Part shown: positions 8,846 through 61,298 of the stretch, piece by piece
Layout: each line of letters begins with the position of its first letter
Position numbering within the stretch: the stretch's first letter is position 1
Source: Arctopsyche grandis
Lineage: Eukaryota; Arthropoda; Insecta; Trichoptera; Hydropsychidae
NCBI RefSeq assembly: GCF_051622035.1
Contig: NC_135355.1
Span: forward strand, 1,488,001 to 1,552,000
Length of the DNA stretch: 64,000 nucleotides
Direction of reading: 5' to 3'
Program-made: the position numbers and the translations under genes
The notes under the pieces: model-generated
Told to the model about the DNA's origin: nothing
Database searches by the model: none
The model's input: the letters and a program-made list of their open reading frames with translations, nothing else

Positions 8846-9029
8846 AATTGAGGAAGGGAGAAGTGTAATACGTTTGTATGGACAAGGTGCTGGTGTCCAG
8901 CCCTCTTAACAATCGACAATACACCGGTGTATTTTCTATGAATTAGTTTCTCCAATCGAAATTTCATCATGATGCCAATAGCGTATTGCGAATGGTGTTT
9001 CTAGAGGGGAAGTTCCGATTTGTACATCA

Positions 9030-9326: not shown

Positions 9327-12300
9327 ATGTATACGGTGAGTCCTTCAGCCCCCCTTCCCCCTTCCCCCTTCCCCCTACCTCCTACCCGCCCGCTCCACTC
9401 CCACGATGATGTGAATAACCTCCTATCTGATGTGATGTGTCTGATGTGCTCGTTTCAGGGGACCACAGCGGAGCAGGACACGCGCTTCAGCGACAAGGAG
9501 AAGAAGCTACTGAAGCAGATGAAGTTCGGAGATTGCCTCACGCAGCAGGTGAACTTTTGACAACTCGCCCCATCTACGACCGTCGTTAAAAGCGGTTTCT
9601 GTTTTATCGATTTTTTTTCCCTCATACATTCGCTCTAAACCTAAACCTAATTTCGCATCGATGTAGTTTCGCCTGATGGGCCTAACCCACTGAACGATCT
9701 TTTGAAGTTTTGTCCGAAGAAGAATAGAACACCAGCGCACTGTTTATTATTATTCAATGCTAGGTTTTATTGTCGGACAATTTGACAACTGAATATACAT
9801 ATATATATATATACAGGTAGTGCTCGAGTTGTTTTTTTTTTAAACATTACTATTGAATACGCCCCCTGCCCTTTGGAATAAGTTGAATGACGCATATTTT
9901 CGACAAATTAGTAAATATACACATTTTGAAGTGAATGAAATTGATACATTTCCTTCGAGTGTTGATACGTCTTGGTAAAAGTCGGAATTCTCGACCCTCT
10001 AGGCTCGGAAGCGAGGCTCACTCCTTCCTGTCATTACTTGCTCTTTGTAAGTACTCTGTAAGTATTGCCGTGCCCTGAATTGACTCGACTTTTACCTGAT
10101 GAAATACTCCGGTCGGACAGCATACGGAAGTATTCCACATGTTGCGAATGGAATATATACAGCAGCAGTCACATAAAACGGAACGCTTAAGCGAAACATG
10201 TTTTTGCGTGAAATTTCGTTAATCTTATATAAAAACAAAACCGAAAGTCATTTAAATGATAGGTTGTACCATAGTGCATTCGTATAACACCAAACGTGAA
10301 AAAAAAGGTGATAAAAATGAGTTGGGGAGAAATTTAATGGAGGGCAGATTTTACGACCGTGCGTTGACTTCATGGTTAAATGAAAGTAACACTATACATA
10401 TACATTTTTAATTTTATTACAGTCACATATTATTATTTACAACTTATAAAAAATAAATTAATATTTTGTAGCGGCTCCTTTCGATTTTATAACTTCTTTT
10501 ATTCGGTTTGGCATGGAATCTACTAAAGTTTTTAAATTTTCGATTGGGAGGTCTTCGTACCATATCTTTTCTATTATTTCTTTCAACGATTTAAGAGTAG
10601 TAACATTGTTCTTCCTTATCCTGTACTCGATACACATCCATAAATTTTCGATTGGATTTAAATCGGGACTTTTGCCAGGCCATGGTAGTGTCTTTACACC
10701 CATTTCTTGTAAATAGTCCCGAACCTAAAAAAAAGTAAAAAAAAAAATTCAGTTTTTTGATTGAAATTTTATAATTTATATTCAATGCTATCAAATAAAA
10801 TGAATACTCACCAATTTAGCTCGATGACAAGGGGCAGAGTCATCTTGAAAAATTATATCATCGGAATATGAAAGGTGGTTTTCCATCGATGGGACAAAGC
10901 TTTCTTCTAAAATTTTTTTATATTTTTTTCCATCGATGGCACCTTGTAGAAACTCCAATTGTCCAATGTTATGGTACGAAAAGCATCCCCAGACCATTTG
11001 ACTTGGAGGATGCGTAACAGTTTTAAGGGTACAATTTTCACTATACCTTTCGCCAACTTTCCTTCGGACATACGGAAAACCATCAGGGCTATAGAGGTTA
11101 AACTTTGTTTCGTCGGAAAGTATCACTCGTTGCCAATCTGATGGACTCCAATTTTCATGTGCTTTCGCCCATTCCAATCGATTGTTTTTCATTCTCTTGG
11201 TTAGTAGTGTTTTTTTTTGCAGCTTTCCGACCGTACAGTCCAGCTTCTCTGAGTCGCCTTCTTACTGTTGAGTCGCTGATCTCCATGGAAAATTGTGAAG
11301 ATACATCTGTTCTTATTTCTACAGTAGTTTTGAATCGCTGCTGTAAAGATAACACGGTCTTGCCTCTCCGATGTGCATCTTTTCAGTCCGGTCCCCTTCT
11401 TACGATCAAAACTTCCAGATTCTCTTTTTTTTTCCAGTATTCTCGAAACAGTCGATATAGAACATCCCATTTTTTTGGAAATTGACCGAAAGGAAAATCC
11501 TGAACTCGCCAATGTCGCGATTTTTACACTCTTCTGCAATGATAACTGAGCTCGTTTTTTCATGTTGACGTGTTAAAATTCGAATTTGATGCTTTCTCCT
11601 CGAAAACCCACACTAAACTGAACGCAAATCTTAGATAACAATCATATTTAGAATATTTGGTCGTTAAAAACCCTACACATAAAGGGATAATCCTTTAATG
11701 GCCTCGAAGTCGTAAAATTCACAAGCGTTCCGTTTTATGTGACTGCTGGTGTATACACGCATTCGTTTGTGGGTTCAACACAAATTCGTCTAAATATGAA
11801 TCAAAACGGGCACGCGTTGTGCCAAATTGATCGTTGTCTCATCTTTATTTTCACACACACACATCCACATTTTGCGTATGTATTTATTTCACTATCATTT
11901 GAATCCACGAAATTATAACCACACTTACCGAAATTCGGAATATTCCCGTACGCTGCCCAACTATCTGAAATTATATGCAAACCAGGCAGTATATGTCGGG
12001 AGTATTTCATCGGGTAAAAGCCGAGTTAATTCAGGGCACGGCAATACTTGGAGTAGTCGCAAAGAGCAACCGATGACGGGGAAGAGTGGATCGACCGAGC
12101 CTAGAGAATTCCAACTTTTACCAACGTCTTTTGTGTTGAAGGCCCGCTATTTCCAACTAGAATTAGTTCGATCGAACCCCAGTGGTTTGGTAAGTCTATC
12201 TCCAGGGTTCGGCGGATTCATATGATTCGGGTGCCAATTAATAAGGGTTCGATGAATGCACATATGAAGCTGGTGGGGGTCAGTACCTCCGACGAGGTTA

Positions 12301-23063: not shown

Positions 23064-26000
23064 ATGAGCGTGAGTCCGCCGCCGGTGAAGCCTCCGAGGA
23101 CCGTCAAGCAGACCAGAGAGACGGTAAACCCTCAAACCCACTTCGCGTTTCGTGTACATATATAATATATATTAATCGCATACACCCACGTCTCTTATCT
23201 CGCATATTTGGTTACAGAGTGGTCTATTGATGACCGTCATAAGAACTCTATCGGCCAGCGAAACCAACGAACAACGCGATAGGGAAAAGGCCAAATTGGA
23301 AAAGGAATACAAAAAGTGTGACCAGAGAGTCGACGAGCTGGTGTCCGCCCACGATGCTGAGATCACCCAAGTTATGCAGGTGCGTTCAAATCGCCACGCA
23401 GACACTCCACTTTGTTTGTTTTCAATTCACTTGACGATACGAGTTGACGGTTTTTAGATATTTGGAAGTATATGCGGTGTGGTCGGAGCGTGCCGAGCTC
23501 GCGTTCAAGGAGTACGAGCTCGTCTAGTCGGATGTAAACAATTGTTGAGGTGGCGTCGGAACGACCTGCGTCGATTGTGCGGCGAAGCTGCCCAACACCG
23601 ACACACTCTGCTCTTGTTGAATCAAATGTTAGTCTATTCTGAATATAGTGAGAGTAATGTATTTTCAATTCTAATGCTAGTTTTTATTTGTAGAGAACAG
23701 TTGACTGGCGTCGGAACTGAAATGAGTGGTCATCTGCAAAAAGGACACTATTTGAATGCGGCTACGGTATTGAGAGCTGCTCTAATAACGGCGCAGACAG
23801 ATCTCTGCCGGGTGGAAGCTTTGCAACATTTACGAACAGATTTAGAGGTTTTTCTTTTTTAGGTGTCTTTTTAGGAGATATTTGTCTTGTTGTAGAAATT
23901 TATTTGATATATTTTGCAGTCCAAAAGGCAATCTTTGTACGACCGTATACTTGGACAGATAAATATAGCTCTATATCAAGTGCATCCAGAGGATTTTAGT
24001 TTGAAAAGGCAAGGCAGTTCGAGAAGACCTGGTTAGTTTCTATTGTCACTTTACTTATTTATTTACATATATACCAGGAAGGCCTTACAGGTAAACCACA
24101 ATGCGCCTTCCTGGCCGATTACAAATTACAATTACAGTGCAGCATTTTTTTTTTATATAAGTCACTGAATTACGAGACACTGAAAAACTCGCAAATCAAT
24201 GATACATCTATCAAATTATCTAACAAACTTATTTATTACACATTAATCAATCCCAAATTATAGGTGTCATATTGTATAGGAAGGATTTGAGCCAATTTTT
24301 TCCGGGAACCGTTTCAACAATGAAATCAGAGAAAGTTGGCAAACTCTGATAGGAAACGATCAACCTGAAGTCGCAAATCCAGGTCTGACCAACAGCATAC
24401 TCTGAAAAATTCATTTTCACTCGAGGCCCGGCCCTGGGATCGAACCCGACGCCTCTCGAAGCTAAGCAGAAGCTTAACGACCGAGCTATGCTGCTGGCTA
24501 ATATAAATACTGTTGCGTAGGGGTGGGTGGAGGATCCAAGTAAAAGGCCAAAGTCGTGTCACAGCATTTATTGATGATTAAGGAGATACACACACTGGCA
24601 GTGCTCAGTCCAGAATGTCTTGATATCGCCTAAGTACCGCCTTATAAGGGGCAGGTCTCTCAGGACATCTTCGACGTCTGATTTGCTTACCTATTGTTAT
24701 GGTCACGTACTCGGATATGTCTTCCCACGACATTCGGTACCACGGTATAGGTCACTTCTGAGAAGGGACCAAATAGCGGCCATTGTTTAGCCTACATGCA
24801 CTTAGAGTCTAGATATAATCCTTGAAACCAATTATAACGATCACGCAGTGTCTGGGATGCTACTCGGGCTAATCCGATTGCAACCACTCGGCGGCTCTTT
24901 TTAGTATACGTAACAATACTTTTGTAGTCTGGCTGAACTCCAGAAGCTCACTGGCGTCTGGGGCTGGTGCGATGGTTTATATCCTAGTCGGTTGTGCTAG
25001 CTTGTCTGTTGAGATCATACTCTCGGGGATTCCTGTGAGCTCGATATTATTTACCTTGTGTGAACGAAGATACATCAGGCAAGATCTGCTCTGCATACTC
25101 TTACAGGAACGCGATGATGCAATCGTACAACTTGTGTTTTATGACGAAATAGATGAGATCATCCTATTTTTTTTTAATGTGCAATAAATTTTTTTTAAGT
25201 CATGTCAAAAAGTTATTCTTCTTCTTCTTGTTAATGCCTTTTCCGCATCCGGACGTTGGCGACCACCTCGTGGATTATTTGAAGATATCCGCATCGGTCT
25301 TCGGTGGCTCGGAACAGATCTTCGGCGCTCATATCGGTCCACATGCGCATGTTTCGAAGCCAAGATAACTTTTTCCTGCCAATCCATTTTTTTCCTTCTA
25401 TTTTCCCCATGGTTATCAAACGGAGAAATTCGTATTTTGGACCCCGTATCATGTGTCCGAGGTACTCGCATCTTTCTCCGCTTGATGACAGAAACAAGTT
25501 CCCTGCCTCTCCCCATCATGCCGAGGACAGCTTCGTTTGATATCTTTTTGGTCCACGGAATCTTCAGCATACGCGTGTAGACCCACATCTCAAAAGCTTC
25601 GATGCGGCTGATCATCTTGGTCTTCAGAGTCCACGTCTCACATCCGTGTAGTAATACTGTCCAGACGTAGCTTTTCGCGAATCTCAACCGCGTATGAAGA
25701 TTGAGATGCTCGTTTGTAAGCGCCGCCTCCATTTTTACAAATGCTGTTCTAGCCATCTCGATGCGGATTCTTAGATCTTCATCTGGGTCCATATCTTCAT
25801 TCAGCCAGGTACCCAGGTATTTGAATCTTTTTACTCTTTCTATCGCCTCTCCATCCAACGTTAGATCACCGGTGTCTGTTTGCATTCTATCTACCATCAT
25901 AAATTTTGTCTTCTTTAGATTTATGCGCAGACCTCTTCGATTGCTTTCTTGATGTACACGGTCTAGAGGTCTTTGCAGGTCTGCTAAATTTTCAGCGACT

Positions 26001-29000
26001 AGTGCCGTGTCATCAGCAAATCTTATATTAGTGATCGTCTCGCCGCCCACTTTGATGCCCTCCGCCTCTTGGAGAGCATCGTGGAAGATGGATTCGGTGT
26101 AGGTGTTAAAAAGAGTAGGTGATAGGATGCATCCTTGCCTGACGCCCCGTTCTATAGGAATCTCATCAGTGAATTGATCATCGACACGTACCACTGCAGT
26201 CTGATTCCAATAAATATTTCGTAGCAATCTGACATCTCTGTCATCCAGGCCAATATTTTTTAATGTTTCCATCAGGCGAGCGTGTTGGACACGGTCAAAG
26301 GCCTTTTCAAAGTCTATAAAGCAGATGTACACAGGTTTACGGACTCCTCATGCATCTTTGAAGTAGTGTTTTCATACAGAAAAGGGCCTCTCGGGTACCC
26401 AAGCCTTGTCTGAACCCAAACTGCTCTCTGCTAATCGCCTCTTCACACGTTTTTCTTACCAAAATCTTATTAGCCAGCAGTTTGGCTTAATGGTAGCGTA
26501 TATATTTAGCACCACTGAGGTCGAAGGTTCGAGTCCTCGTCAAACTGCTGGTTAGGTTTGGGAGTTTTGTGACTACAAATCGATCGTTTCTCTATCAGAG
26601 TTTGCCAATTTTATCTGATCATTGTTGAAACGGTTCCTGAAAATTGGTAATAGATCATTTCCTGTTGTCACAAATCTGTGTGTATAATTTGTAGAAATTA
26701 TGCACATTTATCTGAAATCTATAGATATCTCTATAATTTCGTGTTTATTATATGTATAAAAGTTGTAATAATAATTGTACACAAAAATCTAAAAATAATC
26801 CATAGATGTCTCTATGATTATTATTTCTGTACTGATTAATTGTTATATGCTATGTATTCTGATTGTATATGTATTATTTTATTTCTGACCGTTATCGTAC
26901 ACTCGTCACATTGGAGCGATCTGTAATGACGAGTGTATATTGATTGTAACAATAAAATAAAAATTTTCACATTTTCACAGAATTACCACGACTAATCAGC
27001 AGTCAATCGGAAGACGGCATATTTGATATATCACCCCAATTTGAAATCGATTTAAGCGAAGATAGCAAAAACCTCAAAATACATTTAGCCATACTAATTG
27101 AAGCGAACGCAGTTATCAGTATGATGAAACAGTCTACGGAGGTTTGAGTCACATTATTTGATTTATAATACTTACTCGATTGAATCGTTTCAATGTATAT
27201 ATATTTTGTTTTTTATTACAGAGCATCAAAATTCACATGCAGACCGAATTGTTGAATGTAATTTCGAAAACGTCTCAGTATATACTAGACTTTGGCTCGG
27301 CGCAGTTGCCGTTGGCGCAGACTTCGTTCGGTGAACTGCTCACGGTAGAATCGGAAATCTCGAAGAAGAGCAAACTGGAGGCTCAATCTGCGCAGCCGTT
27401 GGTTGAACTCATCAGTCTGCTCTTGACTCAATGGAGAATTATAGCTGAAAGGCATGAAATATTATTGGAAATTTTGAAGTATTCTAATAAGAAATACAAT
27501 GCGCCAGGTATATCCTTGTATACGATGACGCACTATTGGAGTAGAGTACAAGCAGTGGTACGATTATTTTTGAATTCCATCAATTTATCACTGTATTTAT
27601 GTACTGTTATAATCCTCGTTGTTTACTTTTTCCAGCTTCAACTATTGTTGACGAATTATTTAGATATACAAAGCCTGAAATCGGGATCTCAACGAATGGT
27701 TTACCCCGAGCAACCTACAAATGTAGATATCAATTCGTATTTTGTCAAGAAGAAAACTCAAAGGTTGTTATTTATTGTATACTAACGGATATATGTACCT
27801 GGTGTTATCAGAGTTCCTAATAAAAATAGTCAAAAATCAACTATTAAATAGTTATTTTGAATTGGATAACGCCAGGTATACATTCAAAGCCTTGACGTAA
27901 TGATGGCATAAAATTAAGTACATTTATAAACTTTATCTTGAAAATAGACTCGAGGATTGCGGTGAAATTTTATGAAACTACCCTTTTAGAGCTATTGCAT
28001 ACCAGCTAATAGGTCGTGGGTTCAAATATGCTGCTGGTGAGGTCTTGTGGGTATTAAAAGTACACAGATCGACCGTCTCCAGTTAGAATTTTCCGATTTT
28101 TCATACCTTATTGTTTCAAATCCAATAAATCGGTATCCCCCCCCCCCCCACAGTTTCTCCCAAATTTGAGTTATTAGCATCTCGAATTTGTTGAATCTTA
28201 TAAATGCTACCTACATTATATATTTCTCGCAAATTTGCTGTGTATCAAATTTTTTGTTGACTGTCCATAGACGTCTCTATTGTATTCTATACATATACTG
28301 TTATGTTTGAAATATTGTTAGTAGTATGTAAAAAAATAATCTAATCATATGTGTCGCCTTGGGGTAATTCCATGTCATGGCGCATACGATGTATGCAGGG
28401 CCGCCGAGAGGAATTCCGGGCCCTATGACAAACTAAAAAAAATCTTATATATATGTAGGGTTGGAATTGAACGAAAGGCTGATGTATGGGCTATGGCTGA
28501 GAAAGGGTATGTTACGACTGATTGTGAGAAGGGGCAGGGATGTAACGGTTAGTCGCAGTTGGACCTGTGCTCCGCGCGGTTGGTCGCTAAACCTCCGCAC
28601 GTATCGTCTTAATAAACAACATGACTGAAAACGCACGTGTTTGATCTTCACCTCAACCGCCACATTCCAACCGTGGTCCTGATTTTCTACCACATATATG
28701 TACTTTTAATATGCGAAAAATCTACCAGAACTATTAGAAAGATACCTATATGTTGGTTGTTTGTTTTTAAAATAATTGAATGAAAAAGTATGATATTGTA
28801 ACGTGGGAACATGAAAGAGAGTATCCACTGTCTAAGTGCATTCGTGGGTGAACAATAGAGACCCCAGATTAGGCTAACGGGACTCAGTATGTTCCCAAAC
28901 GTAGGATACGCTTGAGTTCTCGCAGAAAAATAGACTCACCACGGTAGACCTTTACGTGCCTAGACAATAGATACATAAATGGATCGGGGAAGCTGTGGTG

Positions 29001-32000
29001 GTTGACTTGTCCTTCAGATTATTCTGGAGTGAGCGGTGGATCCATGTGAACCTTTGGAATCGTTGAATCAATGCTGTGAAGCGACTTTGGCCTTTCATTT
29101 GGATCATTTGGATCCTACGTAACTATATAACAGGTATGATGTCCAACACGGGGCACCTGGAGTAGTCCGGGCCCTAGAACTTTACCCCGGCTGCTTCCCC
29201 CCCCCCTCGTCTGCCTTCAATGTATAAATAAAAAATGACTAAATGAGTTTTTTAAAAGTGGACTAAGTTTTATGCCTAAAAAGGATAGTAAATGTGATTT
29301 CATCTGGTTGATTGGTTTAAAATACAATAGGATAAACATTTATTTCTAGTAAAAAGAAGTGTCGTCTGTTCAAATTTTCCGGATCTGCCGTTGAGACTGT
29401 GAGCGCTTCAGTAGAACGAGGCGATGAAGCTGCTGCTGCGGGATACAAGCTCGTGTGCACGCCATCTCCAGAACATCTGACACATATTTACCACGTGTTG
29501 GACGACTTCATGGATGAGATTGAAAATCACATGGGGTATTCTGTCAACATAGATCATCTGCAGCATGCTTCGCCTACGAATATACACTATTGAATTATAT
29601 TTTTACAGCGGTTCTGAATGCTCTCTGCGCGTGTACCTTGGCGAGCTGATACGTGGAGCTCAAGGTGAGCGCGCTGCCGCTCAACTCCTCGACCAGATCA
29701 ATGAACTGTGCTCTGAGCACGGGGCGTGGAGGGAGTTGACTGTTATTCCGTTGACGCCTACGAAGAATAAAACCCTCTTTAAGGCAAATATCGGCTTTGA
29801 AATGACGTAAACAGTATGGAATAGTTGTGTAATTTTTTATGTTTGATGTATATTGCAGTGTGGTGTACAATCTTGGGAAGCTTGTGCTCACGCCTTGGCT
29901 GGTTGGATCCGATTGGGCGATATCGGAGCTCGTGCTGCTCGATCGGCCTTAGCGCCAGCACTGACAGCTTTGGCTGCCGCAGCACGACGAAGAGCTACTT
30001 ATTTAGCACCTCATGCTCGTAGCAATTCTTGGAGAACTGATAATGACATCACAAGATTCTTAAAGTAAAGCTGAACAACTATTTAGTTAACTTCTTAAAC
30101 TCTTTGCTTCTTATCTTAGTGATAGGAAGCAATTTGTTAGATATGGTATTTATGAATCTCCTTCATTTTTTACGCGATCTGGTGTAACTCAGGGGTCCAC
30201 CTTAGGCCCTTTACTATTTACAATAGTTATTAATAACCTCCGCAAAGTACTACGCAATGCTTCATGTCTCTTGTTTGCAGACGGCGTTAAATTATTCTTT
30301 GCTGTTAAGGATGAGAGGCAAGCCTCTCTCCTTCAAGCGTATATTAACGCTGTTTTAGAGTTCAGTTCCAGTTTAGGCCTTGAACTGAATACTAGTAAAT
30401 GTGCCATTATGAGTTATGGACGTGCGAATTCGCTATATTGTCACGGATATTCCATTGGATCCGTGTTGTTGAAGCGTGTGGAATCTATGGTCGACTTGGG
30501 TATCACTTTTGATCCTCAATTCATCTTTCACAACCACATCAAGACAGTCGCTGACGTTTCCTTTCGTCGACTTGGATTTGTCTTGAGATATGCTAGGTTA
30601 TTCTCCAACCCCTTGTCTTCTCGCTTGCGTTTCAACTCGCTTGTTAGAAGTAAGCTAGAGTATAATGCGATTGTGTGGAATCCGCATGAAGCAAACTACT
30701 CTCTTATTATCGAAAAAGTGCAAAAAGCATTTCTTCGTTTTCTATATAAGAAAGAGTTTGGGTATTACCCATATCTCTATCCTACTCCTTTCCTTTTGGG
30801 CATGCTTGGGTATAATTCCCTTGAACTTCGGAGAAACTTCTCGTTAATTCGTTTCGTTCTCCAGCTACTGCGTGGTAATACGTCATACCCGTTGTTGCTG
30901 GAACAGTTGGGACTTTATGTACCTAATAATTATGTGCGTGGTAGATATCATCATTTGATGGTTGTACCTCCTGCTCGCACAGTTCTTTTCCGAATGGCTC
31001 CTATGCCAAGAGCTATTCGACTTCTCAATGAAATCGTTGCTGCCGTCCCTGAATGCGATATTTTCTACCTTGGTGAGCGTAGATTATAGGATATTATTTT
31101 AACATATTTATCTGGTAACCTGCGCTCATCATTACTTTCTCAATTTGAATGTGATGTATGAGTGGAATCTTAATCTACTCTCTTCCATTTGGGCCTCGCT
31201 GTGATTTTACTTTTTATTCATATTTTGTTTTATTTTGTTTTACTTTTTCTTTCTCCTTTGTACTATTTTAATTTTGTTCAATGTAAACAAAGAATGGGAT
31301 TTATGGATTTTATTTTTGGTTTTTACACTTTTGTTCATTTTTTTTTCTGATGTATTATTTTCCTTTTGTTACTTTTTTATATTATTTTATTTTACCATGT
31401 TTTCTATTTTTATTTTATATTTTACTTGTTTTTATATCTTTATCAAATGTAGGCCATTGTGGCGCATTAGGGTTCTTCCTGTAATGCCACAATGGTCCAA
31501 AACTATTAATAAATAAATTTAAATTTAAAACATATAATGAATGAATTGCTTTTAGGTCGTTGCCGAACTGGCTCTTATTGAAGAATACTCCCACGAAAGG
31601 CAAAAAAGATACACAATTTATGAATGATGTATGCATTAATTTTCCTTTTTATCTTACACTGCTTGTTATGATGGCGTTACCATGTTAAGTTTATTTCATT
31701 TTTTGAAGGACTTGCAACGAAGTTACGAACGCGAAGCTGAAATATTAGGTTCGAGCCTCGTCGACGGCAACGTCTCTGAACAGGAAATCATCACAAATAT
31801 AGTCACATTGAGAGACATTGCGATAATGTGTGAGACTATGGTATCAATAATGTTCATTTATTTGTAGACTTTGCTATTCCGTGCTATTTGTCGTTTCAAC
31901 TTTTAAAATGTCCAGGAATGGATGTTCGTCAAGTTGAGCCATTGGAAGAGTAATGCCAAATTGAACGTGTTGAACGCTTCTAAAATGAACGGCGTATCGT

Positions 32001-35000
32001 CTTCGCCTTCACCGATGGGTACAAAGCTTAAAAATTCCGTATCGCTCGACGCTCTCCTGGCCGAGTTGACCAATACGGCTGCAGTATTCGAAGAGATATC
32101 TGATAATTGTCTCTTATTATTACATTTAGAGGTAAAACATCTATTGTTTTTCAGCCGTCCTATGCTCGAAGCGGGGACGCGACAATTGGTTCAAGTCCAA
32201 AAGGTTCAACGACAAAATGTACCCGACAATTAGTGCAATATTTACTTATTTAAATTTAAACTGTAACGAACGGTTTTACGCGCGTTATCTGATCTCGCGG
32301 TGGGAGATCCAGAGGGCGGATACGTCGTTCTTCTTCCAAGGGTCGGGTTATAGGGAAACGTGAACTAACCTTGGGATACAGTTTATATAGTCGGGGAGGT
32401 TCCTGACTGCAAATCGTCTCGTTGATAACAGCTTCCTCGTGGTCGGGAGCTGGCTCTGCGCTTCGGGCCGGTCCACTCGCGTCTGATGTTTCTTCGGAAA
32501 CGGCGTGAGCAATACGAGGACGTTGGCTGGAACTCTTGGGAGAGAGTGATGCTGCACTCGACCTCACAGCGGTTCTTCAGCAAGATGGCGGATCTCTGGG
32601 CCCCGTCTCCCCGTGGAGACGTGCACAGGAGAGGTCCTTCTTCGGCGGGGGATGGCGGTAGAGAGACTCGCTCTCGATGCGAGCGCGCCTATATCGCGCT
32701 CTTTTCTTAGTTACTTTTTCCATTAAAATAGGAAAATTTAGTCGCTTGAACGTTATTTCCGTGGACATTTTGTCGCGTGAACATTTTGTGGCGGGTACAT
32801 TTTGTCAGTGCACTAATTGTCGGGTAAATTTTGTCGTTGAACCTTTTGGACTTGAACCAATTGTCGTGTAACCGCTCGAAGCAGTTAATGGACGCCATGA
32901 TTTTTTGTTTTTTTTTTTAGGTTAGGATGCAGTGCTTTTATTATTTGGGAAAATTGGGAAGTTCTTTAGGTCTAACGTCGGAGCCGGCACCGTCTGCATC
33001 GTCGACACACATTGTCCCCGAGTCTCCGGCTACGTCGCTTGCTCGTACTCTTCACGCCTTCTCCGAACACGTCGCACCCATTCTGCATCATAGGAGACGA
33101 AATGTACTACACTTGTATTATAGTAAAATAATGCTATTACTTTATTTTAATGAGAATTTCTGTATTTTTAGTATATAATGGAAGGTTTGGGCGAGATGAT
33201 GTCCGCTGTAGTAGTGGGTAGTTGGAGAGTAGGAGGCTCTGCAGCCATCGGAAGTGCTGCTGCCCAATTGGAGCCGTTGAGGCATTGTTTAACTGCTGCA
33301 CAAATTTCGCCCGACGGTTTGCACAAAGCGTCTCTATATTTACAAATGCTTACCATGACGTCTGAAGTAAGAATATACATACATTACGTTTGGGTTTGGT
33401 GCAAACGATCGACAAGCGCCAGACAGACTGAACCAGAGATTAACTGGATGGCTGCTTTAAACGCAATTCTCGACTTCACGAATGATAGATTGCACATCAG
33501 ATGACGAGTAACCTTTCGATGTGCACAGATGCAATTATTAAAATTGAGTTGGATCTTTCTGGCGAGTTTAATAAGGCAAAATTCGGAACTAAAGTATCAG
33601 GAGCACAGAACGTACAGTCGCGGTTTCGGAAACCGGAACACCATACAAAAATGTGATTTTGCGTGAAATTTCAGTGATCTTAAATAAAATAAACACCCAA
33701 AGTCATTAAAATGGTAGATTATATCATAGTGCTTTATTTTAACGACAATCGTTAAGAAAAGGAACAACAAAAAAAAAGGTAGTAAGAATTTTAGTCCGAG
33801 CCGGTTTTTATGACCAAACGCAGTCTCCACAGTTGAATGAAATTTTGTATGAAAAAACATAGTTGATTGTAAACTTTTAATTTTATTAGACACATGGTAT
33901 TATTTACAAATTATAAAAACTTAATTAATATTTTGTTGCAGCTTTTTTTGCATTTATGACGGCTTTTATACGGCTAGGCATAGAATCTATTAAGTTTCTT
34001 AAAATGTCGATGGGGAAGTCTTCATACCATACTTTTTCAATGGTCTATTTTAATGATTGATGGCTAGACACATTTGTTTTACTAATCCTATATTTAATAG
34101 CCATCCATAAATTTTCAATTGGGTTTTAATCGGGACTATTCCCAGGCCATGTTAATGTCTTTACACCCAATTCCTGCAAATAAACCCGAACCTAAAAAAA
34201 AGTAACAAATATATTTCAGTTTTTTGATCGAAATAATATTAATTACATTCAATACCATTAAATACAACTAATACTCACTAATTTAGCTCTATGACAAGGG
34301 GCAGAGTCATCTTGGAATATGACATCATCAGAATTTGAAAGATGGTTTTCCATTGATGGGATAAAACTTTCTTCTAGAATTTTTATATATGCTATTCCGT
34401 TAATGGAACCTTGCAGAAACTGTATTCGACCAATTCCATATTAAGAAAAACATCCCCAAACCATGTGGCTTGGGGGATGCTTCACTGTCTTCAGGGTACA
34501 CTTTTGGTCGAATCTTTCTCCAACTTTTCTTCGAACATACGGAAAACCATCGGAGCTGAAGAGGTTGAATTTCGACTCATCAGAAAATATCACTTGTCGC
34601 CAATCCGATGTCGTCCAATTTTTGTGATATTCCGACCACTCTAATCGGTTTTTCATCATTTTCTTCGTAATGAATGGTTTTTTCGCAGGTTTACGAGCGT
34701 ACAGTCTAGCTTCTCTGAGTCGTCTTCTTAAGGTTACATCACTTATTTCAATTGAAAATTGATCCCAGATCTCTTTTCTTATCTCTACAGCAGTTTTGAA
34801 CCGTGTCCGTAAAGATAATTGAGTTATCAGGCGATCTTGTCTCTCGGATGTGCATCTTTTGGGTCCTGTCCCTTTCTTACGAGCAAAAGTTCCAGAATCC
34901 TTTTTATTTTTCATTATTCTTGACACAGTAGATACAGAACGTCCCATTTGTTGAGAAATTGATCGCAATAAATGTGCAGAGTCTGCCAAAGCCGCGATTT

Positions 35001-35578
35001 TTATATTCTCCTCCAATGATAGTTGAGTGTATTTTTGCATGGTATTTTTATTTTCAACGATTTCAATCCGTAAACCTCGACAGCTCACACTAAACTGAAC
35101 TCAAATCGTAGAAAACAATCATATTTAAAAGACCCGATCGTTAAAAACCATACACCTAAAGGGACAATATTTTTATTGCCCAAAAATCGTAAAACACAAG
35201 TGTTCCGGTTTCCGAAACCGCGACGGTATGGTCTGTGCTCCTGGTAGATATGTCGGGACTTCGGGTAGATTTCGCTTAGTGTAAGTGCAAGCAGTGCGCA
35301 CGCATCTGTGGTTCAGTCTGTCTGGCGCTTGTCGATCGTTTGCACCGCATCGGTTACGTTTTAATGTTTTGACTTGTGGGTCAGTGTTTAATTTGTTGAT
35401 ATTTTTGTTGTAGGAAATCCTGTCGTTGGTCTCTGAAAAGGGTGCTGTATTTTCAGAGTTGGAGTATATGAACGCTTTTCAAGTTATTGCAAAGTCCACT
35501 AATCAATCAGATTCCGCACTGAAGGCAAATCTCAATAAACTTTCAAACATATTAGGAAACGTCGGTGTTACAGTTTGA
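23064..35578 (+). CDS. Exoc4: Sec8 / Exoc4, exocyst complex subunit 4
   Basis: Subunit of the exocyst, which tethers secretory vesicles to the plasma membrane. Seventeen coding exons give about 937 residues, near the usual ~975: 23064-23123, 23218-23379, 23458-23627, 23694-23847, 23920-24031, 26981-27141, 27222-27557, 27636-27763, 29350-29535, 29609-29783 (end uncertain), 29859-30064, 31556-31628, 31709-31840, 31916-32131, 32921-33103, 33172-33366 and 35414-35578. The N-terminus (GLLMTVIRTLSASETNEQR, then KLEKEYKKCDQRVDELV) matches vertebrate Sec8 strongly. SLPNW, LLLLHLEV and the C-terminal FSELEYMNAFQVI are also family-typical. The exon 10/11 junction only stays in frame with a GC donor; a GT donor 23 bases on breaks the frame. 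Introns 5, 8, 11, 14 and 16 host SINEs, LINEs, LTRs and Tc1. Divergent from yurt. Confidence 0.92.
24064..24500 (-). mobile_element. tRNA-derived SINE with 3' hairpin, Sec8 intron 5
   Basis: Read on the - strand: a tRNA-like head at about 24500-24420 (box B-like GGGTTCGATCCC), a central block with GATCGTTTCCTATCAGAG and GAAACGGTTCCCGG, and a terminal hairpin (24074-24114) with 10-bp arms CCAGGAAGGC / GCCTTCCTGG enclosing GCATTGTGG...CTGTAAG. A diverged relative is at 41697-42153. Confidence 0.7.
24511..24914 (-). mobile_element. Solo LTR, ~400 bp, Sec8 intron 5
   Basis: Bounded by TGTTGCGTAGGGG and TATACGTAACA, with ATAC duplications (24507-24510, 24915-24918). The polyadenylation-like AATAAATGCTG lies near the 3' end when read on the - strand, so orientation is -. 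A sister copy is at 39704-40066. Sequence just after it (about 24920-25060) resembles the second LTR family seen at 3640-3830. Confidence 0.7.
25205..26460 (-). mobile_element. RTE-like LINE reverse transcriptase fragment
   Basis: The frame at 26332-25205 shows the RT core YICFIDFEKAFDRV, RGVRQGCILSPTLFN and the catalytic FADD, then a C-terminal CETWTLK / FEMWVYTRMLKI region typical of RTE-like endonuclease-RT proteins. A frameshift near 26340 separates it from upstream residues that still read QFGFR, and another near 25490 separates the last ~90 residues (LGHMIRG, RATEDR). Dead copy, antisense in Sec8 intron 5. The clade assignment is tentative. Confidence 0.75.
26473..26975 (+). mobile_element. 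tRNA-derived SINE with 3' hairpin, Sec8 intron 5
   Basis: The head (26473-26550) folds like a tRNA: the ends CCAGCAGTTTG / CAAACTGCTGG pair, with box A TGGCTTAATGGTAGCG and box B GGTTCGAGTCC. Then comes the shared core (GATCGTTTCTCTATCAGAG, GAAACGGTTCCTGAAAA). The tail has a hairpin (26898-26937) with TACACTCGTCA / TGACGAGTGTA arms and ends in AATAAAATAAAA, about 10 bp before the exon 6 polypyrimidine tract. A truncated sister is at 45490-45805. Confidence 0.75.
28456..28663 (+). mobile_element. Possible solo LTR
   Basis: TGTAGGGTTGGA...CCGCCACA, about 208 bp, with AATAAACAAC near the 3' end. The following TTCCAACCGTGGTCCTGATT looks like a primer-binding-site region. No matching target duplication was found. 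In Sec8 intron 8. Confidence 0.35.
28797..29131 (+). repeat. Diverged relative of the TACGTAACA-ended LTR
   Basis: Starts TGTAACGTGGGAAC and runs to GGATCCTACGTAAC, sharing the TTTGGCCTTTCA and GGATCC blocks with the LTRs at 24511 and 39704 but in opposite orientation. Boundaries uncertain. Confidence 0.4.
30108..31525 (+). mobile_element. 5'-truncated LINE with 3' hairpin tail, Sec8 intron 11
   Basis: The RT frame is followed by a T-rich 3' UTR, a terminal hairpin at 31452-31498 (CCATTGTGG / CCACAATGG arms with inner CATTA / TAATG pairing) and an AATAAATAAA-type tail. Copies of the same 3' end are at 40078-40548 and, reversed, at 58009-59170. Confidence 0.8.
30136..31089 (+). pseudogene. 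LINE reverse transcriptase C-terminal fragment
   Basis: Fragment of a Jockey-group reverse transcriptase. It reads GVTQGSTLGPLLFTIVINNL, then LLFADGVKLFF, where the catalytic second Asp of the FADD box is Gly. A typical thumb/C-terminal region follows (VDLGITFDPQF, FRRLGFVLRYA, KLEYNAIVWNPHE). A TAG stop at 31087-31089 interrupts it; a few more residues of the family (ILTYLSGNLRSSLLS) follow in frame. The fragment begins about 70 bp after Sec8 exon 11 and is sense to the host gene. The paralogue at 58427-59161 lacks that stop. Confidence 0.78.
32166..32880. mobile_element. TIR element in Sec8 intron 14
   Basis: Inverted arms at about 32178-32236 and 32805-32870 share CGACAATTGGTTCAAGTCCA and AACGACAAAATGTACCCGAC. 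Between them is a GC-richer block with no recognised coding sequence. Superfamily not identified. Confidence 0.5.
33597..35244 (-). mobile_element. Tc1-like DNA transposon (DD34E), copy 2
   Basis: Inverted ends -CAGGAGCACAGA- with TA on both sides (33595-33596, 35245-35246) and a conserved GTCGCGGTTTCGGAAACCGG block. About 1.65 kb. A third, partial copy of the left end is at about 48590-49075. Confidence 0.85.
33930..35040 (-). pseudogene. Tc1-like transposase, copy 2, degraded C-terminal half
   Basis: The frame from 35040 (MQKYTQLSLEENIKIAA) to 34441 is open: HTH region with RSISQQMGRSVSTVSRIM, then FSDESKF, the first catalytic Asp. It is stopped right after MVWGCFS. Downstream, the second Asp region and the C-terminal domain with a recognisable WPGNSPD-type stretch (about 34150-34110) are visible but mutated. 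The 87-bp intron (34192-34278) is at the same place as in copy 1. Antisense in Sec8 intron 16. Confidence 0.78.
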
Positions 35579-37358: not shown

Positions 37359-39225
37359 TCACTTGCTCAAAAGTACGACCTGTTCCGTATCCGGGTACCT
37401 AGGCAGCCTCAGATTATATTTCTGGACGAGACCAGGAGGCACGAATCTGCCACCGAGGTAATGATACAGTCCTGTGAACGATTTGGCGCACTTCTTTGGT
37501 GCCGAAAGCGAGATGAGTATCGTCGGTGACAATACTGGTCCTTCCGTCGGAGGGCCATCATTCACGTTCCATCCAGATGGTATATCGACGCTGAAATTAA
37601 ACATCACACATCAAACACTGTAGGTTTATATTCAACGTTTCGATTTAACCCTTTGCCCGGGCTATAAATATAGCGAACAAGTTCTGTACGTGGCACCTTT
37701 TTCGCGAATTTGGCAACCGAGTTTTCGACCTTAACCGTTTGCCTGCGGCCGTCTTCTATGGAAGCTTTGGGCGACAAGTCTGTAGCGCGGCTGTCTTCCA
37801 TAGAATTTCTGAACTTTGCACAGGATTTTGAGCCTTATATGTACCTATTTCAACTGTTTTAAGGTTCAAAATTGGTTGAATATATTACTGAGAGTTGAAC
37901 GCCATCTATTCAATTTGCTTAAAATTAGTATATACCAGTCAAAATTAGTGGTTTTGTGGAACCATATTGAAACCTCGTTTATGTAACGTCACGTCTGTTG
38001 AACAATGGCGACGATACATCTCAATTGTGTGAATAATGATTATTTGACACAATTAAGCCAAAACTACGAGATATATTATGTATTTTATTGTTTGAAATAA
38101 TACTTAATGTGTTAATTAACATATCTGGTTACTTGAGTTGATATTAAAATCTGTATTTAAGGTCGAAAACTCGATTTCCAAATTCGCGAAAAAGGTGCCG
38201 CGTACAGGGCTTGTTCGCTATATTTATTGCCGCGGGCAAAGGGTTAAATACAGATTTTAATATTTACTCAAATAACCAGATATGTTAATTAACACATAAA
38301 GTATTATTTCAAACAATAAAATACATAATATATCTCGTAGTTTTGGCTTAATTGTGTCAAATAATCATTCTTAATACAATTGAGACGTATGGTCGCCATT
38401 GTTCAACAGACGTGACGTCACATAAACGAGGTTTCAGTATGGTTCCAAAAAACCACTAATTTTGACTGGTATATATTCATTTTAAGAAAGTTGAATATAT
38501 GGCATTCAACTCTCAGTAATATATTCAACCAATTTTGAACCTTAAAACAGTTGAAATAGGCGCATATAACGCTCAAAATCCCGTGCAAAGTTCAGAAATT
38601 CTATGGAAGACAGCCGCGCTACAGACTTGTCGCCCAAAGCTTCCATAGAAGACGGCCGCGGGCAAATGGTTTAGGAACTTGCCTGCAGACTGGAACTGAA
38701 GTGTTTGCCATGGCTTCCATTTGAGGCATCATTTCAGGTCGGATCGGTGGTTTGAAACTGAATCCGAACAAGGCGTCGACGACTATGTTATACGTTGAGT
38801 TTATATCGTCGGCTGTCGGACACTTGTCTACGAACTCCACTCCGTATTTTAGGCATTGGTGTGTCAAGTTCTGGTACAGGGTGTTGGCTGGTCGTTTTGG
38901 ATAGTGCACCGACGGGGCGAAACCCATCATGTGTAAATGGCGTGCGGCTACTAGGCCGTCGCCTCCGTTGTTGCCGGGGCCGCACACAATCAGCACTTTA
39001 CTGTGTCTGGAAAGTGTTGAAAATCAGCGAGAGTTGTTGAAGTATTCAATGTTTTTTTTATATAAGTTAGATTTACTCTTCTGGTAAGTATGTTTTGGCA
39101 ATGGCGCTGGCGCAACTCAAGCCGGCCAGTTCCATGAGTTGGTCTACGCTGAATTTGTATTCGTTGAAGAGGTCTTGATCTAAAGCCGCAGCGTCGGTTT
39201 GGTTGAGGTATTTCATTTCAGACAT
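37359..39225 (-). CDS. NAXE: NAXE, NAD(P)H-hydrate epimerase
   Basis: Epimerises R- and S-NAD(P)HX so that NAXD can repair the hydrated cofactors. Three coding exons on the - strand (39077-39225, 38683-39006, 37359-37590) give 234 residues in one YjeF_N domain. Visible motifs: [11 protein letters not shown] (N-terminal helix), [18 protein letters not shown] (the GPGNNGGDG nucleotide-binding loop), [20 protein letters not shown] and SLTAPK-like SLSAPKKCA, then [10 protein letters not shown] and a C-terminal YPDTEQV, all matching vertebrate NAXE. No mitochondrial presequence is encoded from this Met, so either the insect product is cytosolic or a further 5' exon exists. Intron 1 is GT-AG and short. 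Intron 2 (37591-38682) needs a GC donor (AG|GCAAGT), because only this joins VPVC to SVDIPSGW in frame; it is almost entirely filled by a foldback element. Confidence 0.93.
37645..38673. mobile_element. Interleaved foldback element inside NAXE intron 2
   Basis: Four blocks in the order L1 (37645-37730), L2 (37731-38160), L1' (38161-38246), L2' (38247-38673), where L1' and L2' are reverse complements of L1 and L2 at high identity. Block ends read TTAACC-TTTGCC-G, consistent with a TTAA-targeting (piggyBac-like) MITE. The element ends 9 bp from the GC donor and begins 54 bp from the acceptor; without it the intron would be about 63 bp. Confidence 0.75.
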
Positions 39226-40066: not shown

Positions 40067-40077
40067 GTATTATTATT

Positions 40078-40548
40078 ATCGGATATTATCTTAACATATT
40101 TATCTGGTAACCTGCGCTCGTCATTACTTTCTTAATTTGAATGTGATGAATGAGTGGAATCTTAATCTACTCTCTTCCATTTGGGCCTCGCTGTGATTTT
40201 ATTTTTTATTCATATTTTGTTTTATTTTGTTTTACTTTTTCTTTCTCCTTTGTACATTTTTATATACTATTTTAATTTTGTTCAGTGTAAACAAAGAATG
40301 GGATTTATGGATTTTATTTTTAATTTTTACACTTTTGTTATTTTTTTTTCTCTCTGAATGATGTATTATTTTCCTTTTGTTACTTTTTTTATTTTATTTT
40401 ACCATGTTTTCTGCTTTTGCTTTTTTCCTTTATTTACAGTTTACTTTTTTTTATATCATGTTTTTATATCTTTTTCAAATGTAGGCCATTGTGGCGCATT
40501 AGGTTCTTCCTGTAATGCCACAATGGTCCAAAACTATTAAATAAATAA
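40078..40548 (+). mobile_element. LINE 3' end with hairpin
   Basis: Closely matches 31085-31525: it starts at GGATATTATCTTAACATATT near the end of the RT frame, continues through the T-rich 3' UTR, and ends with the hairpin at 40484-40529 and an AAATAAATAAA tail. 5'-truncated. Confidence 0.8.
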
Positions 40549-40639
40549 ATTATATATTAAATATAGCCAATTAATGTTTTGCACTTCCAAAAACGAGCTT
40601 ATACGCGCGTATAAAACGCTAGTCTGAAACCGCTCTAAC

Positions 40640-41665: not shown

Positions 41666-41696
41666 ATTTACATATTTTTCACATACATATATACAA

Positions 41697-42153
41697 ATAT
41701 ACCAGGAAGGCTTAACAGGTAAACCCCAAATGCGCCTTCCTGGTACACATAATTATTACATAGATACATGTAAATCTAAATATCTGACATCTATGGTCAG
41801 TATACATATATTACAAACATCGTATTAATACGATAAATAACGATGAATAACTATCATGTAACAATACGAATTTTTATATTCGATAAACAGCCACAGAGAC
41901 ATCTATGGTGAGCAATATGGCGAAACCTAAGATATAACAATAACTAAAGGTTCGCAACAGAAAATTGGGAAGGAAACGCCAATTTTACAGGAATCGTTTC
42001 AATGAAAATCAGAAAAATTGGCAAATTCTGATAAGAAACGATCGACCTAGACAAATCAAGGTCTGGCCAACAACGAGACTTAGCGGGGAATCGAACTCGT
42101 AACATCAAGTACGAAATAATTCAACATTCACCACTAGACCACGCTGCTGGTTC
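41697..42153 (-). mobile_element. tRNA-derived SINE with 3' hairpin
   Basis: Read on the - strand: the head near 42153-42085 has box A-like GTGGTCTAGTGGTGAAT and box B GAGTTCGATTCCC, a different tRNA-like head from that of the other SINEs. Then comes the shared core with GATCGTTTCTTATCAGAA, and last the hairpin at 41701-41744 with CCAGGAAGGC / GCCTTCCTGG-type arms. Confidence 0.7.
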
Positions 42154-45489: not shown

Positions 45490-45805
45490 ATAATTTTATC
45501 TGATCATTGCTGAAACGGTTCCTGAAAATTGGTATTAAAAAATCTAATCCTGTTGTCACAAAAATCTGCCTGTGTATAATTTGTATTAATTATACACAGT
45601 AATCTGAAAATCCATAGATGTCACTATGATTATTATTTCTGATTAATTGTTATATTCTATATATTCTGATTGTATATGTATGTATGTATGTATTACTGTA
45701 TTTCTGATTTCTGATTGTTTATGTATTTCATTAACGTACACCCGTCGCATTGGAGCAAATCTGTAATGGCGAGTGTGTATTGATTTGTGACAATAAAATA
45801 AATAA
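45490..45805 (+). mobile_element. SINE 3' part with hairpin (headless)
   Basis: Matches the SINE at 26473 from the core GAAACGGTTCCTGAAAATTG to the end, including the hairpin (45737-45778) and an AATAAATAAATAAA tail. The tRNA-like head is missing. Confidence 0.7.
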
Positions 45806-50169: not shown

Positions 50170-50789
50170 ATTGACTATGTGTCTTGAGGTTAAATTTTTG
50201 AGAAAATTACTTTAGGTAAATTTCACACTTGTAAGGCTTTTCCCCCGTGTGAGTTCTTAAATGTTTATTTTTTTTGATAAATGATTTTAAACAAATGTTA
50301 CATTTGTGTGGTTTTATCCCAGTATGCAATTTTTCATGTGTAAGAAGTTGACATTTTTGAGTAAATGGTTTTAGTCAAATTTCACATTTATGTGGTTTTA
50401 TCTCAGTATGATTTTTTTTATGTATCACGAGCATTGATGTATAATACACTAGATCCGCCCTCACGTCTTATACTGGTCTCCCTTTTGGCGCATGCAAAAT
50501 ACATGGCGCATGCACAGTTTCTCTTAGTAGGTACCGCTGCGTCGTAGGGAAAAAAACCCAACTTCTCAGCTAGTTAAACCCGCCGCACCCCTCAGTCAGT
50601 GTAGACAAGATCTCCGACCAAAATCACACGTCAGGGCCCATCTATGTGTATTATACATCAATGATCACGAGGAAAGATTTTCGAGAAAATGATTTTAGAT
50701 AAATGTCACATTCGAGTGGTTCTATCCCAGTATGCAATTTTGTATGTGAAACGAGGTCAGATTTTCGAGTAAATGATTTTAAACATATT
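50170..50789 (-). pseudogene. Detached 3' fingers of zinc-finger copy A
   Basis: Further C2H2 units follow the frameshift at about 50790: one or two between 50789 and 50664, then (after the MITE at 50432-50663) more down to about 50170. They are in various broken frames. In copy C the equivalent stretch is still readable, showing that the ancestral gene continued here. Confidence 0.65.
50432..50663. mobile_element. 232-bp MITE in zinc-finger array A (8-bp TSD)
   Basis: Perfect 18-bp inverted ends CATTGATGTATAATACAC, with the 8-bp direct repeat ATCACGAG on both sides (50424-50431, 50664-50671). An 8-bp duplication fits hAT or P superfamilies. The identical insertion is in copy C. Confidence 0.82.
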
Positions 50790-52374: not shown

Positions 52375-52896
52375 CGTCCCTGTATTTAACTCTGACAGCA
52401 ACCAGATCGACTGACCTTCGCCTTGCTATTATTTTTTAGTGACATCTTTGGTCTAAATTTGTTACTAGCTTAGGGCTGCCATAATTAGTGTTGTAAAATT
52501 CTCGGTAATAATCTTTTGGCGAATATTCTCCAAATCGAGATTTTTCGAGAATATTTATTTTAAGAGCATATGGAGGGCTATTATATAATACTATTCCGTT
52601 GCAATTTCATTAATAATAATTTTTAATATTTTGCATTTCATATGTACAGAGAGAAGGTAAGCAAATGTGACTTTTGAGCAGTTGGCGAAACACAACAGAT
52701 ATGTTACGCCTATTATGAAGTTTGTGTTAAAAGATTTAACGATTTCGGAGATAAATTCAAAGCAACTTATTTATAGATGTGGAAGCAAAAAAAAAAACCA
52801 ACTGACATTTTTGTGTTAATGGTAAACTCGCATTGTTTATTTACCAATTTTTATCCTATCTAAACTTAATAAATTTACGATTTCAGATTATGTATT

Positions 52897-53641: not shown

Positions 53642-53719
53642 TATTATATTTTAAAAGTAGGCACTGATGTGAAATAACCATTAAAATATCCAAACTCATA
53701 CAAAATCTGTGCTAACATA

Positions 53720-53880: not shown

Positions 53881-53888
53881 ATTAGTGG

Positions 53889-57510: not shown

Positions 57511-57514
57511 GTGG

Positions 57515-57675: not shown

Positions 57676-58008
57676 GTGGTAAATCTGGGCATATCAAAAA
57701 GATGGGTCTACCTCACGGGACCGAAAGTGAAAAGCTCGAAAACGCAAATATTGAAAATCGAAAGATCTTACAAATATACATAGGTGAATCGTATAAGCTA
57801 TTTTAAAATGAATCGATTTATGTAGGTGTGTATTTACCTAATTGTTTAAAACTCTACGACAGGTGGTTCTTTCGACTGACATTTTGATGGGGTGTACACA
57901 GTGGGTCGAAAAGGAGCACCACTCCGCGAAAGGAATTACTCTGACTGGCGTTTCTGTTTGACAGACTTGTCTGAGAGTATGTGGTGGGGGTGCGCCTTCG
58001 TCAATAAT

Positions 58009-59170
58009 TTATTTATTTAATAGTTTTGGACCATTGTGGCATTACAGGAAGAACCTAATGCGCCACAATGGCCTACATTTGAAAAAGATATAAAAACATG
58101 ATATAAAAAAAAAGTAAACTGTAAATAAAGGAAAAAAGCAAAAGCAGAAAACATGGTAAAATAAAATAATAAAAAAAAGTAACAAAAGGAAAATAATACA
58201 TCATTCAGAGAGAAAAAAAAATAACAAAAGTGTAAAAATTAAAAATAAAATCCATAAATCCCATTCTTTGTTTACACTGAGCAAAATTAAAATAGTATAT
58301 AAAAATGTACAAAGGAGAAAGAAAAAATAAAATAAAATAAAACAAAATATGAATAAAAAATAAAATCACAGTGAGGCCCAAATGGAAGAGAGTAGATTAA
58401 GATTCCACACATTCATCACATTCAAATTAAGAAAGTAATGATGAGCGCAGGTTACCAGATAAATATGTTAAGATAACATCCGATAATCTACGCTCCCCAA
58501 GGTGGAAAATATCACATTCAGGGACAGCAGCAACGATTTCATTGAGAAGTCGAATAGCTCTTGGAATAGGAGCCATTCGAAAAAGAACTGTGTGGGCAGC
58601 AGGTACAACCATCAAATGATGATGTCTACCACGCACATAATTATTAGGGACATAAAGTCCCAACTGTTCCAGCAACAACGGGCATGACGTATTACTACGC
58701 AATAGCTGGAGAACGAATCGAATTAACGAGAAGTTTCTCCGAAGTTCAATGGAATTATACCCAAGCATGCCCAAAAAGAAAGGAGTAGGATAGAGATATG
58801 GGTAGTACCCATACTCTTTCTTATAAAGAAAACGAAGAAATGCTTTTTGCACTTTTTCTATAATAAGAGAGTAGTTTGCTTCATGCGGATGCCACACAAT
58901 TGCATTATACTCTAGCTTACTTCTAACAAGCGAGTTGAAAAGCAAGCGAGAAGACAAGGAGTTGGAGAATAATCTAGCATATCTCAAGACAAATCCAAGT
59001 CGACGAAAGGAAACGTCAGCAATTGTCTTGATGTGGTTGTGAAAGGTGAATTGAGGATCAAAAGTGATACCCAAGTCGACCATTGATTCCACGCGCTTCA
59101 ACAATACGGATCCAATGGAATATCCGTGACAATAGAGCGAATTCGCACGTCCATAACTCATAATGGCACA
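58009..59170 (-). mobile_element. 5'-truncated hairpin-tailed LINE, reverse copy
   Basis: Inserted in the sequence GTCAATAATAGTAACGAACC, which is intact in unit A at about 54336-54355. The tail and hairpin (58029-58073) are at the left. No clear target duplication. Confidence 0.82.
58427..59161 (-). pseudogene. LINE reverse transcriptase C-terminal fragment
   Basis: An open 244-codon frame paralogous to the C-terminal part of the fragment at 30136-31089 (VDLGITFDPQF, KLEYNAIVWHPHE), ending ILTYLSGNLRSSLLS. The RT catalytic core is missing through 5' truncation. It keeps the residues that follow the premature stop of the other copy. Confidence 0.78.
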
Positions 59171-59459
59171 TAGTAACGAACCCTATTTGCCGCTTTGAGC
59201 AACTATGTGAAAACGAATATGTATGATTTTCTGGGTCTACCTCACGGGCCGGAATGTGAAATTACCGCAAACGCAAATATCGGAAGGCTAAGATCGAAAA
59301 TCGAAAGTGCGCACGCACATTAATACGGGAGGAAAAGCCCGTTCCTCTTGTTCCTGTTGTTTATCCTGCTCGCGCAAATTAAGTGAGTATGTACCGTTTA
59401 CCATGCACCCTTTTTTTTTGATCTTTCGATTTTCGATCTTTGCCTTAAATTGCCGATGT

Positions 59460-61172: not shown

Positions 61173-61298
61173 ATCACGAGGTAAGATTTTCGAGAAAATG
61201 ATTTAAGATAAATGTCACATTCGTGTGGTTCTATCCCAGTATGCAATTTTGTATGTGAAACGAGGTCAGATTTTCGAGTAAATGATTTTAAACATATT

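Follow-up and report, generated by a model that had tools for sequence, protein, structure and literature searches.

Several LINE and SINE families of Arctopsyche grandis end in a common RNA hairpin, and these ends are probably the tails of one group of stringent-type LINEs, together with those of tRNA-like SINEs that took their tails from these LINEs. The tail RNA is a hairpin built in three layers: about 12 pairs form a lower stem, a 3x3 internal loop and a short upper stem lie above it, and an apical loop that varies caps the whole. The inner motif is carried, in different stems, by at least three LINE families with 40 or more near-identical scored places each: LINE1 (our name for a family of this genome, distinct from mammalian L1), LINE X and LINE A. 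LINE and SINE tails with a common hairpin and compensated stems are already known; the variant seen here has a conserved internal loop, common to a number of LINE families that coexist and to several types of SINE tail. Searches of an open-access library turned up no print of the inner motif, which is weak evidence of absence.

By what means a LINE protein distinguishes its own RNA, and that of a SINE, from other RNA is understood for few elements. The LINE families and SINE tails described here amount to a natural stem-swap set, in which partner choice by the stem, the internal loop or the apical loop is testable. The window, by which we mean the whole stretch of 64,000 nucleotides that was analysed (C1:1488001-1552000), belongs to a genome of 475,669,232 bases in 189 contigs.

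Terminal hairpins, their architecture and their covariation

The initial annotation had listed seven hairpins at the ends of LINE and SINE copies, and each is present at its place and folds as a hairpin, six of the seven holding the exact inner motif inside a paired stem. Those of LINE1 lie at 31452..31498 (+, stem GGCCATTGTGGC, 63.2 bits with the covariance model), 40484..40529 (+) and 58029..58073 (-), the latter two with 64 bits each, and all three were recovered by the motif-in-stem scan. SINE A ends at 24073..24117 (-) in the stem GGCCAGGAAGGC, as in LINE A (folding z -4.0), and SINE A2 at 41700..41745 (-, z -6.1), both supported by the covariance model and by pairing. The SINE B hairpin, with the stem CGTACACTCGTC, occupies 26896..26939 (+; z -4.9 for this copy, B1, with motif-in-stem scan and covariance model), and that of SINE B2, with 10 of 12 outer pairs, 45735..45779 (+; covariance model, z only -1.7). 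An eighth, weaker hairpin beyond the earlier list closes SINE C at 28344..28390 (+, stem ATCATATGTGTC / GGCGCATACGAT, 11 of 12 pairs, model E 0.1, z -1.5). The remaining folding z values were -6.1 for LINE1, -8.9 for LINE2, -2.1 for LINE X, -3.2 for LINE A and -1.7 for SINE D; four of the ten hairpins (LINE X, SINE B2, SINE C and SINE D, z -1.5 to -2.1) are thus weak alone, folding only slightly better than shuffles. When folded alone, 45737-45778 is predicted to adopt a different fold, and most of the upper stem of 24074-24114 opens.

In the motif-in-stem scan, which required RCATT...CTGTAA to adjoin a stem pairing at 8 or more of 9 positions, the window gave six exact matches, all from the earlier list; 20 first-order Markov shuffles gave 0.05 on average. 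Allowing one mismatch raised the count to 10 (0.85 in the shuffles) and brought in the seventh listed site, and allowing two raised it to 14 (about 5.2), so that the loosest matches are largely chance. Stem-blind patterns performed less well: the first gave four matches, with 8 of 100 shuffles as high, and the second four matches, with none of 100 as high. A very lenient scan returned 208 matches, mostly noise, of which only a few family matches were kept. Rfam gave no match at the gathering threshold, and viral contigs held no relative by protein; none of their four pattern matches folds into the LINE/SINE tail hairpin.

The lower-stem letters differ between families, 5 to 15 of 24 being kept between groups, and A-rich repeats of the TAAA type directly follow the hairpin. 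Across 11 family rows, a table from which the LINE3 copies L011 and L046 were left out, the TT before the upper stem and the TGT after it are invariant; the 5' side of the internal loop is CAU in seven rows and CUU, CCU or UAU in the others, its 3' side is UAA in six, UUA in four and UCA in one, and the short upper stem begins U.G. The motif as first written fits literally only in the LINE copies, since 41701-41744 reads CTGTTAA and the SINE B copies read CATTGGA. The claim that stems differ completely likewise fails for LINE1 and SINE A, in which 15 of 24 stem positions are equal (GGCCA....GGC) and four adjacent pairs are altered on both sides; between LINE1 and SINE B, 18 of 24 positions differ. 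The two middle letters of the internal loop face each other as A and A in many tails, and as U and U in LINE2 (L036:8205-8248, L033:8997-9040) and SINE D (L028:1778-1816), which may be a covarying non-canonical pair.

Compensatory change in the stems, which the initial annotation had proposed, exceeds both shuffled and slid controls. In an alignment of 12 hand-picked seed hairpins with the structure given (A2), 92.0% of 201 pair cells are paired and 10 of 17 pairs have changed on both sides; the covariation score was 0.545 against 0.194 after shuffling (sd 0.024; none of 500 as high) and at most 0.182 in the slid versions. The covariance model returned 69 matches at E up to 1 in 356,877 bases. 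Random sampling of the genome covered 20 stretches of 10 kb, on C1 and C3. In the alignment of all 69 matches (A3) there are 35 distinct rows; double-sided change affects 13 of 17 pairs, a count reached by 1 of 500 shuffles, and the score is 0.390 against 0.153, a score fitted to the model and with the weak matches (E up to 1) and one antisense palindromic match (L036 +) kept. No pair count was taken from a family-level alignment (A4), in which SINE C and D are misplaced. With no structure given, RNAalifold called 11 lower-stem pairs, eight of them with both sides changed, and did not call the upper stem. Because there are only about six stem types, these many double changes represent few independent family-level changes, and the counts are of sequences, not of events. 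Lower stems formed from their own arms pair on average at 10.8 of 12 positions, against 6.3 when arms are swapped between groups; the highest swapped value, 11 of 12, joins the left arm of SINE B with the right arm of SINE D, and these two are therefore not clearly separate types.

The further proposal that the stem only has to pair is an overstatement, since stem letters are also held within stem groups. Among SINE A-type copies, identity is 0.93 in the stem and 0.87 in the 13-letter core, the stem standing above the core in 45 of all 78 pairs and below it in 18. In 33 of these pairs the upstream DNA is at background (200-base identity 0.62, shuffled mean 0.61), and there identity is 0.90 in the stem, 0.85 in the 13-letter core and 0.80 over the inner segment as a whole, with stem above core in 22 pairs and below in 11. 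The 15 pairs of LINE1-type copies give 0.83 for the stem and 0.90 for the core (stem higher in 4, lower in 10). The conservation of stem letters within groups means that pairing alone is no full account of the stem: either the letters matter or tails are renewed whole.

LINE families, SINE families and their shared ends

As had been supposed, the LINE copies of the window are 5'-truncated copies of a real LINE with one common 3' end. The first includes an ORF2 fragment at 30091..31089 (+) with the RT and C-terminal part (332 aa, RVT_1 E 8.3e-13), whose identity to the 120 further scored places in the genome is 95-96%, and ends at about 31525. The second, mostly 3'UTR, spans 40075..40553 (+) and is 85% identical to the copy at 31083-31549 and 97.5% to 58004-58487; the third, recognised by repeat comparison and open frames, spans 58004..59182 (-), with an ORF2 fragment at 58427-59182. 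In one LINE1 copy, at L051, an ORF2 of 989 codons has endonuclease and RT domains (PF03372 E 6.9e-07, PF00078 E 1.7e-27) and the hairpin follows about 350 bases beyond. A LINE1 RT query gave 121 scored places of 14,401 candidates, 19 of them with the exact 989-codon open frame. For the 3' tail, the best 40 of 898 candidates were scored and 30 fetched, and the 29 besides the window's own are 97-99% identical. A PDB search with the RT lists L1 ORF2, R2, other retrotransposon, retron-type and group II intron RTs. The L051 ORF2 also reads PPWFGSKLITDVRAKWLSHRRW, in which a P-W and a later W stand, as judged by eye, at approximately the spacing of the residue numbers given in PMC4176376 for the conserved tail-binding region that L2-clade LINEs have between EN and RT. 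LINE2 (L036, L033) and LINE3 (L048, L011, L046) are diverged relatives of LINE1 with other 3'UTRs and the stem GACCATTGTGGC or variants of it, and the internal loop of LINE2 is CTT opposite TTA.

Nine of ten LINE1 tails checked have no flanking direct repeat of at least 9 bases, and the remaining one has a single 9-base repeat. In 6 (L012, L019, L022, L025, L027, L030) of the 29 copies L002-L030, which have their match near 1501-1573, LINE1 sequence sets in close to the hairpin, within some 20 bases on its upstream side, as though the reverse transcriptase had often halted just past it. L008 resembles these short copies, with more LINE1 sequence directly upstream, perhaps through an internal deletion.

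The covariance model revealed the tail of LINE X at L014:1968-2011 (best 40 scored of 688 candidates, 99-100% identical); one copy has an RT frame just upstream of the tail, of 431 aa and 42% identical to LINE1 over 407 aa. At L029 another LINE, LINE A, ends in the SINE A stem, the C-terminus of its ORF being followed by a UTR with a TA array and then by GGCCAGGAAGGT...GCCTTCTTGGTG. The LINE A ORF end is 98-100% identical in the best 40 scored of 494 candidates, and its hairpin with 46 upstream bases was found at 40 or more full-length places (99-100%; 1,877 candidates). Ten loci, that of L029 included, occur in both lists, with the hairpin on the same strand and 212-611 bases downstream of the ORF end; at an eleventh the two are 4,186 bases apart. 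A partial LINE A RT (L078, directly upstream of another ORF-end place) shares 54% identity with LINE X and 39% with LINE1; for both LINE X and LINE A, only the C-terminal parts of the proteins were read.

The motif-bearing LINEs form one group in the RT tree (support 82/83, 80% of bootstrap trees). This tree has nine rows, not all of them complete (44% of columns are filled for LINE A), its branches are long and its outgroup is doubtful; support for the group is only 59/73 when LINE A is left out. The LINEs of L038 and L040/L049, and a window LINE at 6374-8905, branch apart from this group; the 3' ends of the former (L038, L040, L049) are free of the motif, and the window LINE has no nearby model match. 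The motif-less end in L038:400-1330 (-) belongs to a related LINE family, and in L049:2950-3900 (-) and L040:6950-7900 (-) a short GGTCAA...TTGACC hairpin, or a one-letter variant, precedes A-rich repeats. The LINE of L046/L053, whose 76-aa end is nearest to LINE X (42% over 71 aa), has a short GGCCACA/TGTGGCT hairpin without the motif (by eye), so that the motif is not universal among the nearest relatives of LINE X.

On the SINE side, the SINE A copy at approximately 24060..24498 (-) has a tRNA-like head with the B-box-like GGGTTCGATCCC, a central domain and the tail; SINE A2, at approximately 41690..42152 (-), has another head and body and the same stem as SINE A. SINE B, at approximately 26472..26960 (+), likewise consists of a tRNA-like head (TGGCTTAATGGT, AGGTTCGAGTCC), central domain and tail, and its tail is found at 40 or more scored places with 99-100% identity; a partial copy at 45492..45800 (+), in which no head was found, is 70% identical to 26607-26961. 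SINE A, A2 and B have one central domain in common, with 80-87% identity over stretches of about 69-104 bases. SINE C is a SINE-like repeat with its own stem type at approximately 28000..28390 (+); its best 40 scored of 1,257 candidates include itself, and the others are 81-87% identical. SINE D, revealed by the covariance model (L028:1778-1816), has 64 matches, 28 of which, besides its own place, span the hairpin. Loose patterns found a B-box-like match in the heads of four of five SINE copies (SA1, SA2, SB1, L046) and an A-box-like match ahead of it in three of those four (SA2, SB1, L046), an A pattern that also matches outside heads; with these patterns SINE C gave no A- or B-box match at the expected place. 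ARAGORN called no tRNA over the window, and the SINE heads are therefore termed tRNA-like only. In L046:8800-9835 (-), four SINE A tails lie on one strand, 308-356 bases apart, as a tandem SINE array.

These SINEs do end in a 3' hairpin of the LINE1 kind, as first noted. The accompanying suggestion, that two SINE types depend on the one LINE of the window, is not supported. It fails for SINE A, whose stem is that of another family, the young LINE A; use of LINE1 by SINE B is possible. The 3' end of this partner is itself related, SINE A and LINE A sharing both stem and inner motif, that is, the common 3' tail by which a stringent-type pair is recognised. Given this stem and the 10 loci that link ORF end to hairpin, the most likely carrier of SINE A, now or in the past, is LINE A. 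For SINE B, C and D, shallow searches found no stem-matched LINE. A LINE with the SINE B stem was sought in the 60 bases that precede 20 of the 40 scored SINE B tails and rejected, since all 20 show SINE B sequence there, L068 and L069 for only about 28 and 20 letters. A genome-wide pattern in which T-rich DNA precedes the SINE B stem matched three places, two of which correspond to an older SINE B end in L013.

Other features of the window were also recorded. Long frames at 6374-8905 (-) and 25205-26347 (-) belong to two other RT elements (best identity to other tree rows 27% and 24%). No covariance-model match belongs to their ends, although the second is followed downstream, on its own strand, by the SINE A copy at 24060-24498. 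An inverted repeat at 37729-38675 has 432-base arms, 94% complementary and 83 bases apart. Clustered, partly duplicated C2H2 zinc-finger frames with 84-base repeats occupy 50255-62459 (-), and one such frame has a weak zf-AD match in Pfam (PF07776, E 4.1e-05, 24.2 bits, below the cut-off of 28). Tc1/mariner-type transposase fragments lie at 34441-35100 (-) and 10791-11572 (-), the second by resemblance only.

Origin of the shared tails

If the tails were taken by SINEs from stringent-type LINEs, the LINE protein (ORF2) would bind the hairpin in its own RNA and in that of the SINE, by analogy with zebrafish L2, plant L1 and eel UnaL2, and target-primed reverse transcription would start at the repeats after the hairpin. 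Each SINE would most likely owe its entire tail to a single LINE family, as SINE A to LINE A; with tails gained whole, stem differences would have arisen mainly between LINE lineages, pairing being kept and the core held.

Alternatively, one reverse transcriptase might serve all tails, reading the inner motif alone within any paired stem, and SINE B, C and D would use whichever motif-bearing LINE is active. Several observations lean this way: SINE B is young, and yet SINE B sequence stood upstream at all 20 tails checked; the T-rich pattern led mainly to the old SINE end; and, according to PMC4176376, the stems of the zebrafish L2 pair are exchangeable with activity kept, at about half the rate in one. 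We nevertheless consider it unlikely, as the stem letters of SINE A match one particular LINE, stem letters within groups are held about like core letters, changed stem sequences sharply cut UnaL2 retroposition (PMC4176376), and the searches for a LINE with the SINE B stem were shallow. The stem could also act as an address, the internal loop serving as a group-wide handle and the stem letters choosing the LINE protein for each RNA. The stem common to SINE A and LINE A, the three LINE families with one inner motif in three stems, and the excess of stem over core in the background-upstream SINE A-type pairs would agree with this; however, a shared stem is also expected from common tail ancestry, the address could instead lie, as in zebrafish L2, in the apical loop, which likewise varies from one family to another, and the lower conservation of stem than core in LINE1-type copies reduces its odds, so that we hold it to be doubtful. 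Still less probable is a two-part tail code, the reverse of zebrafish L2, in which a common internal-loop handle would be joined to a family-specific stem address copied by the SINEs, with SINE B, C and D as orphans of lost LINEs or as generalists.

Support for reading by the RT is here of sequence origin, and the hairpin might have another RNA role, such as stability, export or 3' end formation. This is very unlikely, since the hairpin is the part common to LINE and SINE ends and adjoins the repeats, as in the tested stringent LINEs (PMC4176376). As for chance palindromes or drift in old repeats, loose stem-blind patterns do come near to chance, as do most two-mismatch matches, but the exact motif-in-stem matches, the covariation controls and the fact that each type is a repeated family make such an origin extremely improbable; for the main types, the motif-in-stem counts against shuffles refute chance palindromes. 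The transfer of tails from one group of stringent-type LINEs to SINEs remains our preferred reading.

Relation to known LINE and SINE tails

In the eel, UnaL2 and a SINE have a common 3' hairpin that is required for retroposition; it has a conserved apical loop and a bulge, whereas the tails described here have a 3x3 internal loop. Among insects, the SINEs HaSE1-3 (PMC3272025) and several lepidopteran SINEs (PMC8010984) have a tRNA-related head and a common central domain, with 3' ends that differ. As here, one family was matched to a LINE tail (PMC3272025, PMC8010984); the words stem-loop and hairpin are absent from the first source, and stem from the second.

In zebrafish, ZfL2-1 and ZfL2-2, of the L2 clade, have an essential 3' stem-loop whose stems can be swapped with the structure kept, and the region of the protein that binds the tail lies between EN and RT, according to PMC4176376. 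The loop is there LINE-specific and the stem general, whereas in the present tails, as known from their letters, the inner motif is common and the stem differs (PMC4176376). A similar arrangement occurs in the LINEs of the plant L1 clade and the SINEs of monocots, which have a common 3' hairpin with compensated stems and few conserved letters in loop and flank (Ohshima; PMC3747384). In both systems LINE and SINE have the hairpin in common and their stems vary with compensation; the conserved letters of plant L1 lie in the loop (UCU) and in the 3' flank (CGAG), while here they lie in a 3x3 internal loop and a short upper stem (PMC3747384).
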